Shown here: piece by piece, positions 8,451 through 15,007 of the stretch
Layout: every line of letters begins with the position of its first letter
How positions within the stretch are numbered: the stretch's first letter is position 1
Source of the DNA: a virus
Length of the DNA stretch: 22,473 nt
IMG/VR virus record: IMGVR_UViG_3300042924_003151
Span: 1 to 22,473 of that record
Strand: one strand, 5' to 3'
Program-made: the position numbers and the translations under genes
The notes under the pieces: generated by a model
What the model was told of the DNA's origin: nothing
Seen by the model: the letters and a program-made list of their open reading frames with translations, nothing else
Database searches by the model: none

Positions 8451-8582
8451 ATGATCCTCGCAATCCTCTCATTCATCGCCGGCCTGATCACGGGTCTGCT
8501 CGTCATGCGGAAACACGCCGCCAAAGCCTCCGAACTGGAGGCCAAGGGCAAGGCCGCTCTCGACGCGCTCAAGGGACGCTGA
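8451..8582 (+). CDS. Small single-TM membrane peptide of the lysis cassette
   Basis: A 43-residue ORF directly after the fibre gene (5 nt gap). Residues 1-19 (MILAILSFIAGLITGLLVM) form one hydrophobic helix, followed by a Lys/Arg/Glu-rich helical tail of 24 residues. Base composition and codon use match the lysis genes that follow, and the next gene begins 4 nt after its stop. Its place suggests a holin regulator, a small holin or a fragmentary inner-membrane spanin partner. A GGAAG lies 11 nt upstream of the ATG, one of the few possible Shine-Dalgarno-like sequences here. Function unproven. Confidence 0.6.
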   Translation: MILAILSFIAGLITGLLVMRKHAAKASELEAKGKAALDALKGR

Positions 8583-8586
8583 CCCT

Positions 8587-9339
8587 GTGCGCCTGTTCCT
8601 GGTCATCGCCGTCCTGGCCCTGACCGGGTGCAGTCTGTTCCGCAAGGGTGACGCTCTGCCGCCCCTGCCCGTCCAGCCGCCGGCCCCGACGAAGCCTGAC
8701 AACGTCGCCACGCTCGGCAAAGACCTAGACAAGACGGATCACCGCGTGGCCTCGGCCCTCGTGGCCATCGAGCGTAACGCCGATAAGGCCAAGGTCGTCG
8801 TCGCGGAGTCTCGGCTGGCCCAGTCCTATCTCCCCGCACCGCCCGAGGCCGACGTGGCCTTCGCCATGGCCCGGGCTACCAAGGCCGACCCCATCGACTA
8901 CGCCCGCCAGATGGCCTTCGGTCGTCAACTCGCCACCGCCGTGACCAAGGCATGGGAACGACTAGAGGCCGACCAATCTGAAGCCAAAAGGGTGTCCGAT
9001 TTAAAGGATGCCCGCATCAAGGAACTGCAAGCCGAGGTCGAGCGCGTGAAGAAGGACGCCTCCGCCCAGACTTGGACGCTCGTCGGTGCCGGCCTCGCCG
9101 TCATCGGTGCGCTGACGACCGCATTCCTAGGCCCCCGCATCGGTCTGCCCCTGCTTCTCTGCGGCGCCTTCTGCGGATCGGTTCCCTTCATCATCGACTC
9201 GCCCTGGTTTGAATATGCGGCCGGTGCGACCCTCGTCATCTCCTGCGGCCTGGGGCTGTGGTGGCTGGCTGACCGTGTTAGGGACTCGGTGAACAAGCCC
9301 ACCCCTGCCGACGATGAGCAAGCCCCGCCCCAAGTCTGA
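8587..9339 (+). CDS. Lipoprotein with three C-terminal TM segments; candidate unimolecular spanin
   Basis: A 250-residue protein from GTG 8587. Residues 1-15 are a type II signal peptide with lipobox LTGC (Cys15); the next residue is Ser, which by the Lol rule permits outer-membrane sorting. A Pro-rich stretch (24-38) follows, then a long charged helical region with predicted coiled coil at about 118-158, then three hydrophobic segments near 162-181, 184-203 and 209-228. A lipidated N-terminus plus C-terminal membrane anchoring is the architecture of unimolecular spanins such as T1 gp11, which fuse inner and outer membrane at the last step of lysis. Three TM segments rather than one are unusual and might add a holin-like function. 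It overlaps the next gene by 26 nt. Confidence 0.6.
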   Translation: MRLFLVIAVLALTGCSLFRKGDALPPLPVQPPAPTKPDNVATLGKDLDKTDHRVASALVAIERNADKAKVVVAESRLAQSYLPAPPEADVAFAMARATKADPIDYARQMAFGRQLATAVTKAWERLEADQSEAKRVSDLKDARIKELQAEVERVKKDASAQTWTLVGAGLAVIGALTTAFLGPRIGLPLLLCGAFCGSVPFIIDSPWFEYAAGATLVISCGLGLWWLADRVRDSVNKPTPADDEQAPPQV

Positions 9340-9631
9340 CCCGCCCGCGGTCAAATACGCGGAGCCTCACTTCACCTTCCGCATCCTCGGGAAGGCAAAG
9401 CCCTCGCACGATCCGAAATGCAAGACACCCTTCGGCTACTGCTGGAAAGGCTACGGAGACATCCACGTCGACCCTCGTCAGCCTGAACATGAGCTCATCG
9501 ACACGGCCGTCCACGAGCTGATTCACGACACGTATCCTTTTCTCGACGAAGACGCGGTCGAGGCCGGAGCGACCCGCATCGCCGAGTCCCTTTGGCGCAT
9601 GGGCTACCGCCGCACCGTCATCAACCCATGA
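9314..9631 (+). CDS. HExxH zincin-like metallopeptidase domain protein
   Basis: A 105-residue protein from ATG 9314. The helix DTAVHELIHDTYPFL (about residues 63-77) contains HELIH, the zinc-binding HExxH of zincins, and the acidic residues in DEDAVEAGATRIAESL just downstream could supply the third ligand. There is no signal peptide or membrane segment, so it would stay in the cytoplasm unless released. It lies inside the lysis cassette between the spanin and holin candidates, overlapping the first by 26 nt and the second by 4 nt (ATGA). Roles in lysis, protein processing or an unrelated SprT-like function are all open. Zinc binding is inferred from the motif. Confidence 0.55.
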   Translation: MSKPRPKSDPPAVKYAEPHFTFRILGKAKPSHDPKCKTPFGYCWKGYGDIHVDPRQPEHELIDTAVHELIHDTYPFLDEDAVEAGATRIAESLWRMGYRRTVINP

Positions 9632-10005
9632 GCCCTCCCCCTCCCATCAGCCCCGAGGACATCCCGAAGGAACTCAAGGACGGCGTCGTCGCGTCAGTCC
9701 TCGGCGGCCTAGCCATGACGGCCCGCCTTCTGCTATCGACCGAACCTGTGTCCCTGGGCTGGGTCGTGCGCCGTGTCCTCGCCGCCGCGATCACTGCGGC
9801 CTTGGTCGGCTACGGCATCCAAGACCACATCCAAAGCCCGGGCCTGAAGATGGGCGTCGTCGGTGCGGCCGGCTACGCGGCCCCCGAATGCCTGGACTAC
9901 CTGATGAAATACATCAAGGCCCGCGGAGAGAAGGAAGTCGCCGCGGTCGTCGGCAAACCGAAACCCCATGGCAAAGGCAAAGCAGTCAACAAGCGGAAGC
10001 GGTAA
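9628..10005 (+). CDS. Holin, LydA-like
   Basis: Start chosen at ATG 9628, overlapping the upstream TGA as ATGA, rather than TTG 9592. The 125-residue product has hydrophobic segments near residues 17-34, 41-60 and 69-87, including WVVRRVLAAAITAALVGYGI and then VVGAAGYAAPECLDYLMKYI. The GYAxPExLDYL pattern after a small-residue-rich helix is what I associate with LydA-type (superfamily III) holins. The C-terminus is strongly basic (KGKAVNKRKR), as in many holins. It would open the inner membrane at a set time to release the endolysin. The 3' end overlaps the next gene by 38 nt. Confidence 0.65.
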   Translation: MSPPPPISPEDIPKELKDGVVASVLGGLAMTARLLLSTEPVSLGWVVRRVLAAAITAALVGYGIQDHIQSPGLKMGVVGAAGYAAPECLDYLMKYIKARGEKEVAAVVGKPKPHGKGKAVNKRKR

Positions 10006-10291
10006 CCTTCTGCTGGCGGTCACGCTGCTCACCGGCTTCGCGGGAGTCTCGGCCCTGTCGTCGGCCTACATCGCCGGCTACGTCCTCGACCAGCTGCAAT
10101 CGACTGACGCCCTGGTCATGATCGTGACGGATGCTGGCCTGAAATCCGACTCCGCCGACCTCGAGCGCAACATGAGCACGGCGACGATGGCCCTGAAGTC
10201 CGTCCGCGACCTAGGCTGGGCCTTGGCCGTAGGGTGCCTAGGGGTAGGGGTGGCGGTCTTCTTACGTTCCCGCCGTCAAAGCGTCTCCTAG
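9968..10291 (+). CDS. Two-TM membrane protein of the lysis cassette (possible antiholin)
   Basis: A 107-residue protein starting at ATG 9968 inside the holin 3' end. Hydrophobic helices lie at about 13-40 (LLLAVTLLTGFAGVSALSSA) and 83-100 (GWALAVGCLGVGVAVFL), with a ~42-residue polar loop between them and a basic C-terminus (RSRRQS). With a basic N-terminus, both ends would be cytoplasmic and the loop periplasmic. Close overlap with the holin suggests a partner such as an antiholin, or a second holin. It is the last gene before the non-coding spacer and thus probably ends the late transcription unit. I recognise no family motif. Confidence 0.5.
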   Translation: MAKAKQSTSGSGNLLLAVTLLTGFAGVSALSSAYIAGYVLDQLQSTDALVMIVTDAGLKSDSADLERNMSTATMALKSVRDLGWALAVGCLGVGVAVFLRSRRQSVS

Positions 10292-10931: not shown

Positions 10932-11816
10932 ATGCTCGACGAACTCTTCCGCAAGGTCGAAGCGCAGTTCAACGTGCGTCCCTCCACCCGTAAGCCCTCC
11001 GCTCCTCGCGGCGTGGCCATGCTCGCCAAGACCTACTGCGGCGAACTCCCGGCCCTCTACGCGGTCGAGCCCAAGGTGGACGGCGTCCGCGTGATCGTCA
11101 CCGCCGACCTCGACAACGGCGTAGTCTCCTTCGCCTCCCGCCGTGGCAATCGCCTCGCCTCCCTCGACCATCTCGCCCAGGAGGTGCTCGACCTCTTCGG
11201 CGCTCTCCGCGGAATCTGGACGCTGGACTGCGAAGCCGTCGCCGGCAAAGGGTTCTTCAATGACGTCGGGGAAATCCGCTCCGAAGCACCGGCCCTCGAC
11301 GCCCGCCTCTGGGTCTTCGACATTCCCTCGATGAGCAGCCGCACCTACCGCGAACGTCGCAAGGTGCTCGCCGATATCTTCGAGGCCGCCCTGCCTAAGC
11401 CCTGCTCCCTCCTGCTCGTCCCCTCCCTCGTCGGCGTCCTGCCCGAGGAGGCCTTCCGTGACTTCACGGCGCAAGGTTTCGAGGGCGTCATGGTCAAAGA
11501 CGCTGGCGCTTACTACTCCCACGGCGTCCGCTCCGCAGCTTGGCAGAAACTCAAGGCCTCCGACACCGTGGACGCTGAGGTCGTGGACGTGGTCGAAGGC
11601 GAAGGCAAGTGCGCCGGCATGGCTGGCCGCATCGTCGTCCGCCTCGGTCGTCGCTACGTCAACGTCGGGACAGGAATGAGCAACGAGACCCGCCGCGATC
11701 TGCTCGCCCGCCGTGCCCAGGTCATCGGCCAGACCGCCGAGGTGGCCTTCCACTGCGTCACCCCCGACGCCTCCCTCCGTCACCCTTCCCTCGTCCGCAT
11801 CCGCGGCGACAAGTAA
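10932..11816 (+). CDS. ATP-dependent DNA ligase
   Basis: A 294-residue nucleotidyltransferase that seals nicks in duplex DNA through an enzyme-AMP intermediate. Motif I is EPKVDGVR with the AMP-accepting Lys48; motif III is near LDCEA (98-102); motif IIIa is VFDI (128-131); motif IV is EGVMVKD (184-190); motif V is KLK (206-208). Residues ~210-294 would form the C-terminal OB fold. The length matches compact phage ligases, with no extra domains. It probably acts in replication and recombination together with the helicase, ERF and exonuclease genes downstream. No start-site Shine-Dalgarno; ATG 10932 lies 5 nt after the previous stop. Confidence 0.9.
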   Translation: MLDELFRKVEAQFNVRPSTRKPSAPRGVAMLAKTYCGELPALYAVEPKVDGVRVIVTADLDNGVVSFASRRGNRLASLDHLAQEVLDLFGALRGIWTLDCEAVAGKGFFNDVGEIRSEAPALDARLWVFDIPSMSSRTYRERRKVLADIFEAALPKPCSLLLVPSLVGVLPEEAFRDFTAQGFEGVMVKDAGAYYSHGVRSAAWQKLKASDTVDAEVVDVVEGEGKCAGMAGRIVVRLGRRYVNVGTGMSNETRRDLLARRAQVIGQTAEVAFHCVTPDASLRHPSLVRIRGDK

Positions 11817-13054: not shown

Positions 13055-13315
13055 ATGCCTCGCCGTTATAGCATCATCGCTGGTGTCGCGTCCATGAAGA
13101 CCGACGGCCCTTTCGTCCTTAACAGGGAGGTCGAAGCAACCTTGCAAACCCGAGAGCGTAAAATCGCATTATTAAAAAAGCAGATACATGAACGAGACCT
13201 AAAACTGGCGAAGAGCTCAAAGGGTATAGTGCGTATCAGCATCAACTCAACCAAAGGAAAGACATACGAAATAACCCTCGACGGAACCCTAACCATAAAC
13301 GGACTACCTCTATGA
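13055..13315 (+). CDS. Small unknown protein in a low-GC segment
   Basis: Start ATG 13055, 1 nt after the previous stop; ATG 13094 is an alternative. The 86-residue product has a basic coiled-coil segment (about residues 25-55, RERKIALLKKQIHERDLKLAK) followed by a beta hairpin (IVRISINSTKGKTYEITLDGT). GC is about 40-43 % at 13141-13260 by my count, the lowest of any gene-sized segment here, and AT-rich codons such as ATA and TTA appear. This suggests a recently gained gene. Its stop overlaps the next start (ATGA). Function unknown. Confidence 0.55.
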   Translation: MPRRYSIIAGVASMKTDGPFVLNREVEATLQTRERKIALLKKQIHERDLKLAKSSKGIVRISINSTKGKTYEITLDGTLTINGLPL

Positions 13316-13764
13316 CCCTAAACCAGCGCTTCTCAGTCGTCGCCCTGCTGCTCCTCGGGCTCAACGCCCAAGCCAAGACCGACGCCGCCTTCCTTGAGGC
13401 CGTCGCCGCGGTCGAGTCCGGGCACAACCGCAAGGCCATCGGCAAGGCCGGTGAGCGGGGCCAGTATCAGGTCGGAAAGGCCGCTTGGGACGATGCCTCC
13501 GCCCGCCTCAAGGCCGAGGGCCACTACGCCTTCCCCTGGTCTAAGTGGCGCGACGCTACGGCGCAGGACATGGTGGCCGCTTCGCACCTCCGCTGGATCA
13601 GGTCGAACTTCCACCGCCTCGGCATGACCGACCCGACCCCCGAACAGATGGCGCTCGTCTGGAATGTCGGATGGTCGGAGGCCCGCAGCCGAGACTTCAG
13701 GGCGAACGACTACGCCTTCCGCGTGGCTAATTTATTCCGCTCGCAAAAGGTTTTGACCCGTTGA
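13312..13764 (+). CDS. Secreted lysozyme-like transglycosylase (probable endolysin)
   Basis: A 150-residue protein. Residues 1-21 form an export signal (MTLNQRF then VVALLLLGL, cleavage after AQA), so it should reach the periplasm through Sec. The rest resembles a goose-lysozyme/SLT transglycosylase fold: AVESGHNRKAIGKAGERGQY (about 33-52) supplies the catalytic Glu35 and the Gln-Tyr of the family's ES...GxxQ pattern, followed by a helix with conserved Trp. It cleaves the beta-1,4 MurNAc-GlcNAc bond of peptidoglycan. It is separated from the holin cassette by about 3 kb and lies among replication genes, unlike most endolysins. A virion-associated or signal-released role is possible. ATGA overlap with the upstream gene. 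Confidence 0.75.
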   Translation: MTLNQRFSVVALLLLGLNAQAKTDAAFLEAVAAVESGHNRKAIGKAGERGQYQVGKAAWDDASARLKAEGHYAFPWSKWRDATAQDMVAASHLRWIRSNFHRLGMTDPTPEQMALVWNVGWSEARSRDFRANDYAFRVANLFRSQKVLTR

Positions 13765-14539: not shown

Positions 14540-15007
14540 ATGCCTAAAGAACCCACATCCCCCAACACCGCGACGGCCGACCTGGTCGCCGCTCTCGCGC
14601 AGCTCGACAACGTCAAGGCCAACAAGGTCAACCCGGGCTTCAAGAACCGCTACGTCTCCCTCGACGCGCTGCTCGACGCCATCAAGCCAGTCCTCCTCGA
14701 CCACAACCTGGCTCTGATCCAGACGCTCATCTCCGAAGAGGGCAAGGTCGGCGTCTCGACCGCCTTCCTCCACACCTCCGGCGAGCGCTTCGACTTCGGC
14801 CGACTGATGGTCAAGTCCGAGGGCCTCGACGCTCAGAAGATTGGCGGAGCCATCACTTACATCCGCCGCCAGTCCATCCAGACCGCCTGTTCCATCAGTG
14901 TGGACTTGGACGACGATGGTGCCGTGGCGGCCTCTGGCTTCCGTTCTGCGGCCGTTTCCCCCTCCGCCCCTGCCTTCTCCCCCACCCCTCGCCCCCTGAC
15001 CAAATGA
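14540..15007 (+). CDS. ERF-family single-strand annealing protein
   Basis: A 155-residue protein from ATG 14540. It shows the ERF layout: NPGFKNRYVSLDALLDAIKP near residues 31-50, a central strand region (GVSTAFLHTSGE, 71-82), then the conserved end DAQKIGGAITYIRRQSIQTA (97-116) with Gly-Ala and Arg-Arg, and an acidic VDLDDDG. The C-terminal ~30 residues are Pro/Ser-rich and probably disordered. ERF proteins coat single-stranded DNA and anneal complementary strands, as in P22. Here it would pair with the PD-(D/E)XK exonuclease at 16073. The stop overlaps the next ATG in the recurring ACCAAATGA junction. Confidence 0.85.
   Translation: MPKEPTSPNTATADLVAALAQLDNVKANKVNPGFKNRYVSLDALLDAIKPVLLDHNLALIQTLISEEGKVGVSTAFLHTSGERFDFGRLMVKSEGLDAQKIGGAITYIRRQSIQTACSISVDLDDDGAVAASGFRSAAVSPSAPAFSPTPRPLTK

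Follow-up and report, generated by a model that had tools for sequence, protein, structure and literature searches.

A candidate unimolecular spanin with a predicted three-segment membrane anchor in an uncultured phage lineage

The putative lysis cassette

The window analysed here, i.e. the whole stretch of 22,473 nucleotides forming positions 1 to 22,473 of IMG/VR virus record IMGVR_UViG_3300042924_003151, carries a putative lysis cassette in which the gene for a predicted lipoprotein with three C-terminal hydrophobic segments lies two genes upstream of a holin candidate (Table 1). A separate holin in the cassette had been noted by an earlier sequence-only reading of the same DNA, and the candidate gene agrees with that remark. 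The gene order, i.e. tail, 43-aa transmembrane (TM) protein, lipoprotein, putative metallopeptidase, holin candidate and protein with two TM segments, recurred at almost every one of 114 distinct loci, and the metallopeptidase gene was present at 146 of the 152 distinct loci. The endolysin candidate, which sits 3 kb past the cassette in the window, was located downstream wherever the contig extended that far and was identified in 14 of the 15 larger relatives; no detectable match to it was obtained in the 42.7-kb relative G014. Additionally, an ORF at positions 10932-11816 resembles, by eye, an ATP-dependent DNA ligase.

Table 1. Location of the candidate spanin gene, its predicted domains and neighbouring genes in the window.
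Feature	Position	Strand	Basis and remarks
Candidate unimolecular spanin gene	8587..9339	+	ORF, GTG start, TGA at 9337-9339, 250 aa
Lipoprotein signal and lipobox LTGC, Cys15, +2 Ser	8587..8631	+	GC invariance (58 members), [GAS]C in 143/143
Pro-rich linker, residues 16-38, consensus PLPxQPxAPT	8632..8700	+	Invariant P28 and P34; 29% Pro
Predicted periplasmic helical region, residues 39-160	8701..9066	+	AlphaFold2; Cys-free in 58 members
Predicted three-TM module, residues ca. 162-181, 187-203, 210-228	9067..9291	+	Hydropathy, loop charges, dN/dS 0.12
C-terminal tail, variable, predicted cytoplasmic	9292..9336	+	dN/dS 0.55
43-aa protein, one N-terminal TM	8451..8582	+	phrog_3879 (no assigned function); stops 4 bases upstream of the spanin start
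Putative metallopeptidase (HELIH)	9314..9631	+	phrog_87, weak, E 0.023; overlaps both the spanin gene (at its end) and the holin candidate (at its start)
Holin candidate	9628..10005	+	phrog_6384 holin, E 2.2e-6; ATGA overlap with the metallopeptidase gene
107-aa protein, two TM segments	9968..10291	+	Overlaps the holin candidate
Endolysin candidate, signal-like N-terminus, transglycosylase-like (SLT)	13312..13764	+	PF01464, E 0.0015, under cut-off

A six-frame scan of the window and of nine larger relatives (28-43 kb, themselves fragments), which also covered unusual lipoboxes in seven of the nine, returned this protein as the sole convincing lipoprotein. No second convincing lipoprotein, as a two-component pair of inner- and outer-membrane spanins (i-/o-spanin) would include, turned up in the cassette or in the nine larger relatives, whichever frame was read. 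As a control, the same scan of a 12.8-kb stretch of phage T1 returned gp11 alone. One antisense lipobox ORF in the window (14643-14434, minus strand) was rejected, as it is opposed by the ORF at 14540-15007.

Domain layout and conservation of the lipoprotein

Relatives in viral contigs numbered 222 for the window protein and 239, 134 and 12 for the proteins L045, L234 and L238, respectively, and the family comprised 152 distinct sequences, all encoded on fragmentary contigs of uncultured viruses. No relatives were found with three queries among 50,697 phage records, T1 included, nor in 84,980 GTDB species genomes, and a literature search linking spanins to a probable freshwater host gave no useful result. 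Searches against Pfam, PHROGs, NCBIfam and PDB gave only weak coiled-coil or membrane matches. Among these, TIGR04211 was matched in 50 of the 58 aligned members, and its match in the window protein, spanning residues 119-181 (coil and first TM segment, TM1), was far below the cut-off.

From the N-terminus, the protein consists of the lipobox, the Pro-rich linker, a charged centre, with ca. 145 residues up to the membrane, and three hydrophobic segments. It begins with MRLFLVIAVLALTGC (GTG read as Met), and the lipobox with Cys15 and Ser at position +2, as the sequence-only reading had described it, was recovered as the LTGC motif. Gly14 and Cys15 were invariant in the 58-member alignment, in which identities went down to 36%, and [GAS]C occupied the lipobox in 143 of 143 distinct sequences whose N-terminus was complete. 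Among these there were no homologues devoid of the lipobox Cys, which the sequence-only reading had named as a refutation. In one member (L303, 4001-4732) the lipobox Cys is followed by Asp at +2, unlike in the other 57; +2 Asp is the inner-membrane retention signal of Escherichia coli lipoproteins. The previously noticed Pro-rich stretch is likewise a family feature, with a mean of 29% Pro over residues 17-37 of the 58 members and with P28 and P34 invariant.

Hydropathy placed hydrophobic segments of the window protein at about residues 164-182, 185-203 and 210-228. The third was the weakest (KD 1.46, with values up to 2.5 in relatives), and three segments were present in every complete family version inspected by eye or hydropathy. 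Segment assignment was based on hydropathy and charge statistics over 58 members, in which a charged residue occurred inside TM1, TM2 and TM3 in only two, none and four members, respectively. Both measures thus favour membrane helices, as had been claimed, over the suggested opposite outcome that the C-terminal segments might fail as such. The first loop (GPRIG in the window protein) has on average one K/R and zero acidic residues (net charge +1.0), the second (DSPWFE) is acidic (net -1.5), and the C-terminal tail starts with K/R across the 58 members. By the positive-inside rule these charges predict an N-out/C-in topology. In L210 (3985-4989) the spanin candidate continues in frame into the metallopeptidase to a total of 335 aa, which is consistent with a cytoplasmic C-terminus.

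For the whole protein the median dN/dS was 0.22. The central domain (0.13) and the TM region (0.12) had lower values than the signal, linker and tail (0.55 in the tail). The retention of the Cys in 143 of 143 relatives, the invariance of the GC pair and a dN/dS of about 0.2 together indicate that the three-segment lipoprotein architecture is not a product of chance.

The distance from Cys15 to TM1 was 140-150 residues across the 58 members, and such a near-constant length at identities down to 36% suggests a bridge fitting a gap. No periplasmic Cys other than that of the lipobox was present in any of the 58. AlphaFold2 produced all-helical models with the same helix order for the window protein (pLDDT 74, pTM 0.41) and for L238, which is 39% identical to it (pLDDT 75, pTM 0.43), so that model confidence was moderate. 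Both contained three short helices, a long helix entering TM1, and then TM2 and TM3; the helices of the window protein were predicted at residues 37-63, 68-81 and 87-99, followed by the long helix at 102-181, which corresponds to residues 96-173 in L238. The central region had been described as a charged coiled coil. Its charge and, in the two models, its helical nature were upheld, while for the coiled coil itself the tendency of hydrophobicity to repeat with a heptad period (P about 0.03 relative to shuffled sequences) is suggestive, not strong. Confident Foldseek neighbours were uncharacterised phage proteins only, among them A0A6J5MZD0 of an uncultured Caudovirales phage (E 4e-17, 49% identity), from which no function was transferred. 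Foldseek gave no match against PDB, and the PDB sequence search gave nothing useful.

Comparison with known spanins

The protein combines a lipobox, a C-terminal anchor in the same chain, a periplasmic part free of Cys, and a place in the lysis cassette, all of which are features of unimolecular spanins (u-spanins), although its anchor is predicted to have three segments and not one. Periplasmic Cys is absent from all 58 published u-spanins (PMC6139136), and the predicted N-out/C-in orientation fits what a u-spanin requires. On the basis of these features, together with the constrained bridge and the standing of the protein as sole convincing lipoprotein in the scanned contigs, the u-spanin interpretation put forward earlier is retained as well supported, and we consider the protein to be a u-spanin variant, alpha-helical and with a three-TM anchor, with a probability of roughly three in four. 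The spanin function is one that we infer, and the gene is accordingly listed as a candidate. No sequence or fold match to tested spanins was obtained, PHROG Rz-like matches being weak only.

As a u-spanin, which presupposes a host with an outer membrane, the protein would be exported via Sec and cleaved at the lipobox, and Cys15 would be lipidated. Its N-terminus would then move to the outer membrane while the three C-terminal helices stay in the inner membrane, leaving the Pro-rich linker and the alpha-helical part, ca. 145 residues together, to span the periplasm. After removal of the peptidoglycan by holin and endolysin, collapse or zippering of the helical region would draw both membranes together, and the resulting membrane fusion would release the progeny.

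Envelope lipoproteins are common in phages, and a function outside lysis, e.g. in superinfection exclusion or envelope stabilisation, was also weighed; the single relative with +2 Asp would be in line with such a function. The fixed site near the holin candidate, the near-constant bridge and the lack, in the scanned contigs, of an alternative lipoprotein to serve as the spanin speak against it, and we regard it as unlikely.

The prototype u-spanin, T1 gp11 (AY216660), resembles the window protein in being one chain with an N-terminal lipobox, a C-terminal anchor and no periplasmic Cys, encoded in a lysis cassette. However, gp11 has 133 aa, one TM (107-125) and 84 residues from Cys to TM, whereas the window protein has 250 aa, three predicted TMs and a spacing of 140-150 residues in its family, and no sequence similarity between the two was detectable. 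The periplasmic domain of gp11 is beta-rich, in contrast to the all-helical models obtained here, and the structural comparison with gp11 that had been proposed thus points to a protein outside the gp11 family. The earlier statement that known u-spanins have a lipobox and one C-terminal TM agrees with the published survey (PMC6139136), from whose u-spanins the candidate differs by its three predicted TMs and its modelled helical periplasmic domain.

With lambda Rz/Rz1 the candidate shares, by prediction, helical coiled-coil bridging of the periplasm, the proposed driver of membrane fusion; Rz and Rz1 are, however, encoded by two embedded genes and form covalent dimers via periplasmic Cys, whereas here a single gene encodes a protein that lacks such Cys. 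As a multi-TM spanin, the candidate has its nearest precedent in the inner-membrane spanin of phiCbK. In the gp105/gp106 system (PMC3556154) this protein carries one or two additional predicted TMs, and its periplasmic domain is helical and Pro-rich, but the system has two components encoded by overlapped genes, the additional TMs sit at the N-terminus of the i-spanin, and the lipoprotein is separate.

The three-TM module and its possible roles

Pairwise comparisons show that the central and three-TM modules are swapped independently between phages. L185 was 44% identical to the window protein in the centre and 96% in the TM region; for L237 the corresponding identities were 78% and 38%. Among 4,560 pairs, 366 had similar centres and dissimilar TM regions, and 442 the opposite. 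Mosaic proteins of this kind were L185, L186, L195, L237 and L316.

Correlations between genes were computed on pairwise distances with phylogenetic structure ignored, and with that reading the distances of the TM module and the holin candidate correlated little (Spearman 0.14; partial 0.08 given the metallopeptidase), in contrast to those of the holin candidate and the two-TM gene (0.70). The 43-aa protein correlated with the TM module at 0.39 (0.30 as a partial correlation that accounts for the central domain) and with the spanin central domain at 0.28, though the centre lies between the 43-aa gene and the TM module. That the 43-aa protein tracks the TM module above the centre may hint at contact between them. 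This weak correlation, together with the position of the 43-aa gene directly upstream, would also suit a two-component spanin of which the lipoprotein is one half and the 43-aa TM protein, or the two-TM protein, the inner-membrane partner. The lipoprotein carries TMs of its own, though, and the 43-aa protein has positive charges past its TM, which would orient its C-terminus to the inside, and does not have the length to span the periplasm; such a pairing is therefore considered highly improbable.

For the u-spanin candidate, a refinement rather than an exclusive alternative is that the additional TMs act in concert with the holin or detect when it is triggered. Coordination with the holin was proposed for the extra TMs of the phiCbK inner-membrane spanin by its authors (PMC3556154), which provides a precedent, and the strong constraint on the TM region (dN/dS 0.12) is compatible with a role of this kind. 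The low correlation with the holin candidate (0.14, partial 0.08), set against the 0.70 of the holin candidate and the two-TM gene, makes the refinement doubtful, if conceivable.

Three TMs in N-out/C-in orientation are the topology of class I holins, and the sequence-only reading had raised the possibility of a spanin and a holin combined in one chain. In such a chimera the three TMs would be a class I holin-like module that also permeabilises the inner membrane or times its permeabilisation. Lambda S105, a class I holin, has this same topology; in the window protein, by contrast, the TMs are preceded by a long periplasmic domain and, at the N-terminus, by a lipoprotein signal, and no holin-family match was above cut-off. 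Weak matches to PF07332 (holin superfamily III) in 22 of the 58 members (best E 3.8e-6), and a TM region constrained like the centre (dN/dS 0.12 and 0.13), beyond the apparent need of a bare tether, are in favour of the combination. Against it, the window protein scored 18.8 bits for PF07332 against a cut-off of 28.4, the cassette keeps a separate holin candidate, and variation in the TM module does not follow that of the candidate. As the module hardly tracks the holin allele, the combination is conceivable but gains no positive support, the weak PF07332 matches being insufficient, and a literature search on spanin-holin fusions found no description of such a chimera. The spanin half of the earlier proposal was thus kept and the holin half was not; the full combination is judged quite improbable.

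A broader speculation, also improbable in our estimate, is that one chain would act both as spanin and as inner-membrane effector, the conserved and exchanged three-TM module acting as more than a tether, e.g. by oligomerising or by perforating the inner membrane. If true, inner-membrane disruption and membrane fusion would both be done by one protein.

In the published survey (PMC6139136), u-spanins have a single C-terminal TM, the periplasmic domain of the gp11 family is beta-rich, and a comparison is drawn between u-spanins and viral fusion proteins of class II. A u-spanin with a helical coiled coil would instead be class I-like, which suggests more than one origin of one-chain fusogens. 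Whether the spanin membrane anchor has a role past tethering is a question posed for phiCbK (PMC3556154), and the naturally swapped three-TM modules of this family would constitute a ready set for probing such roles.
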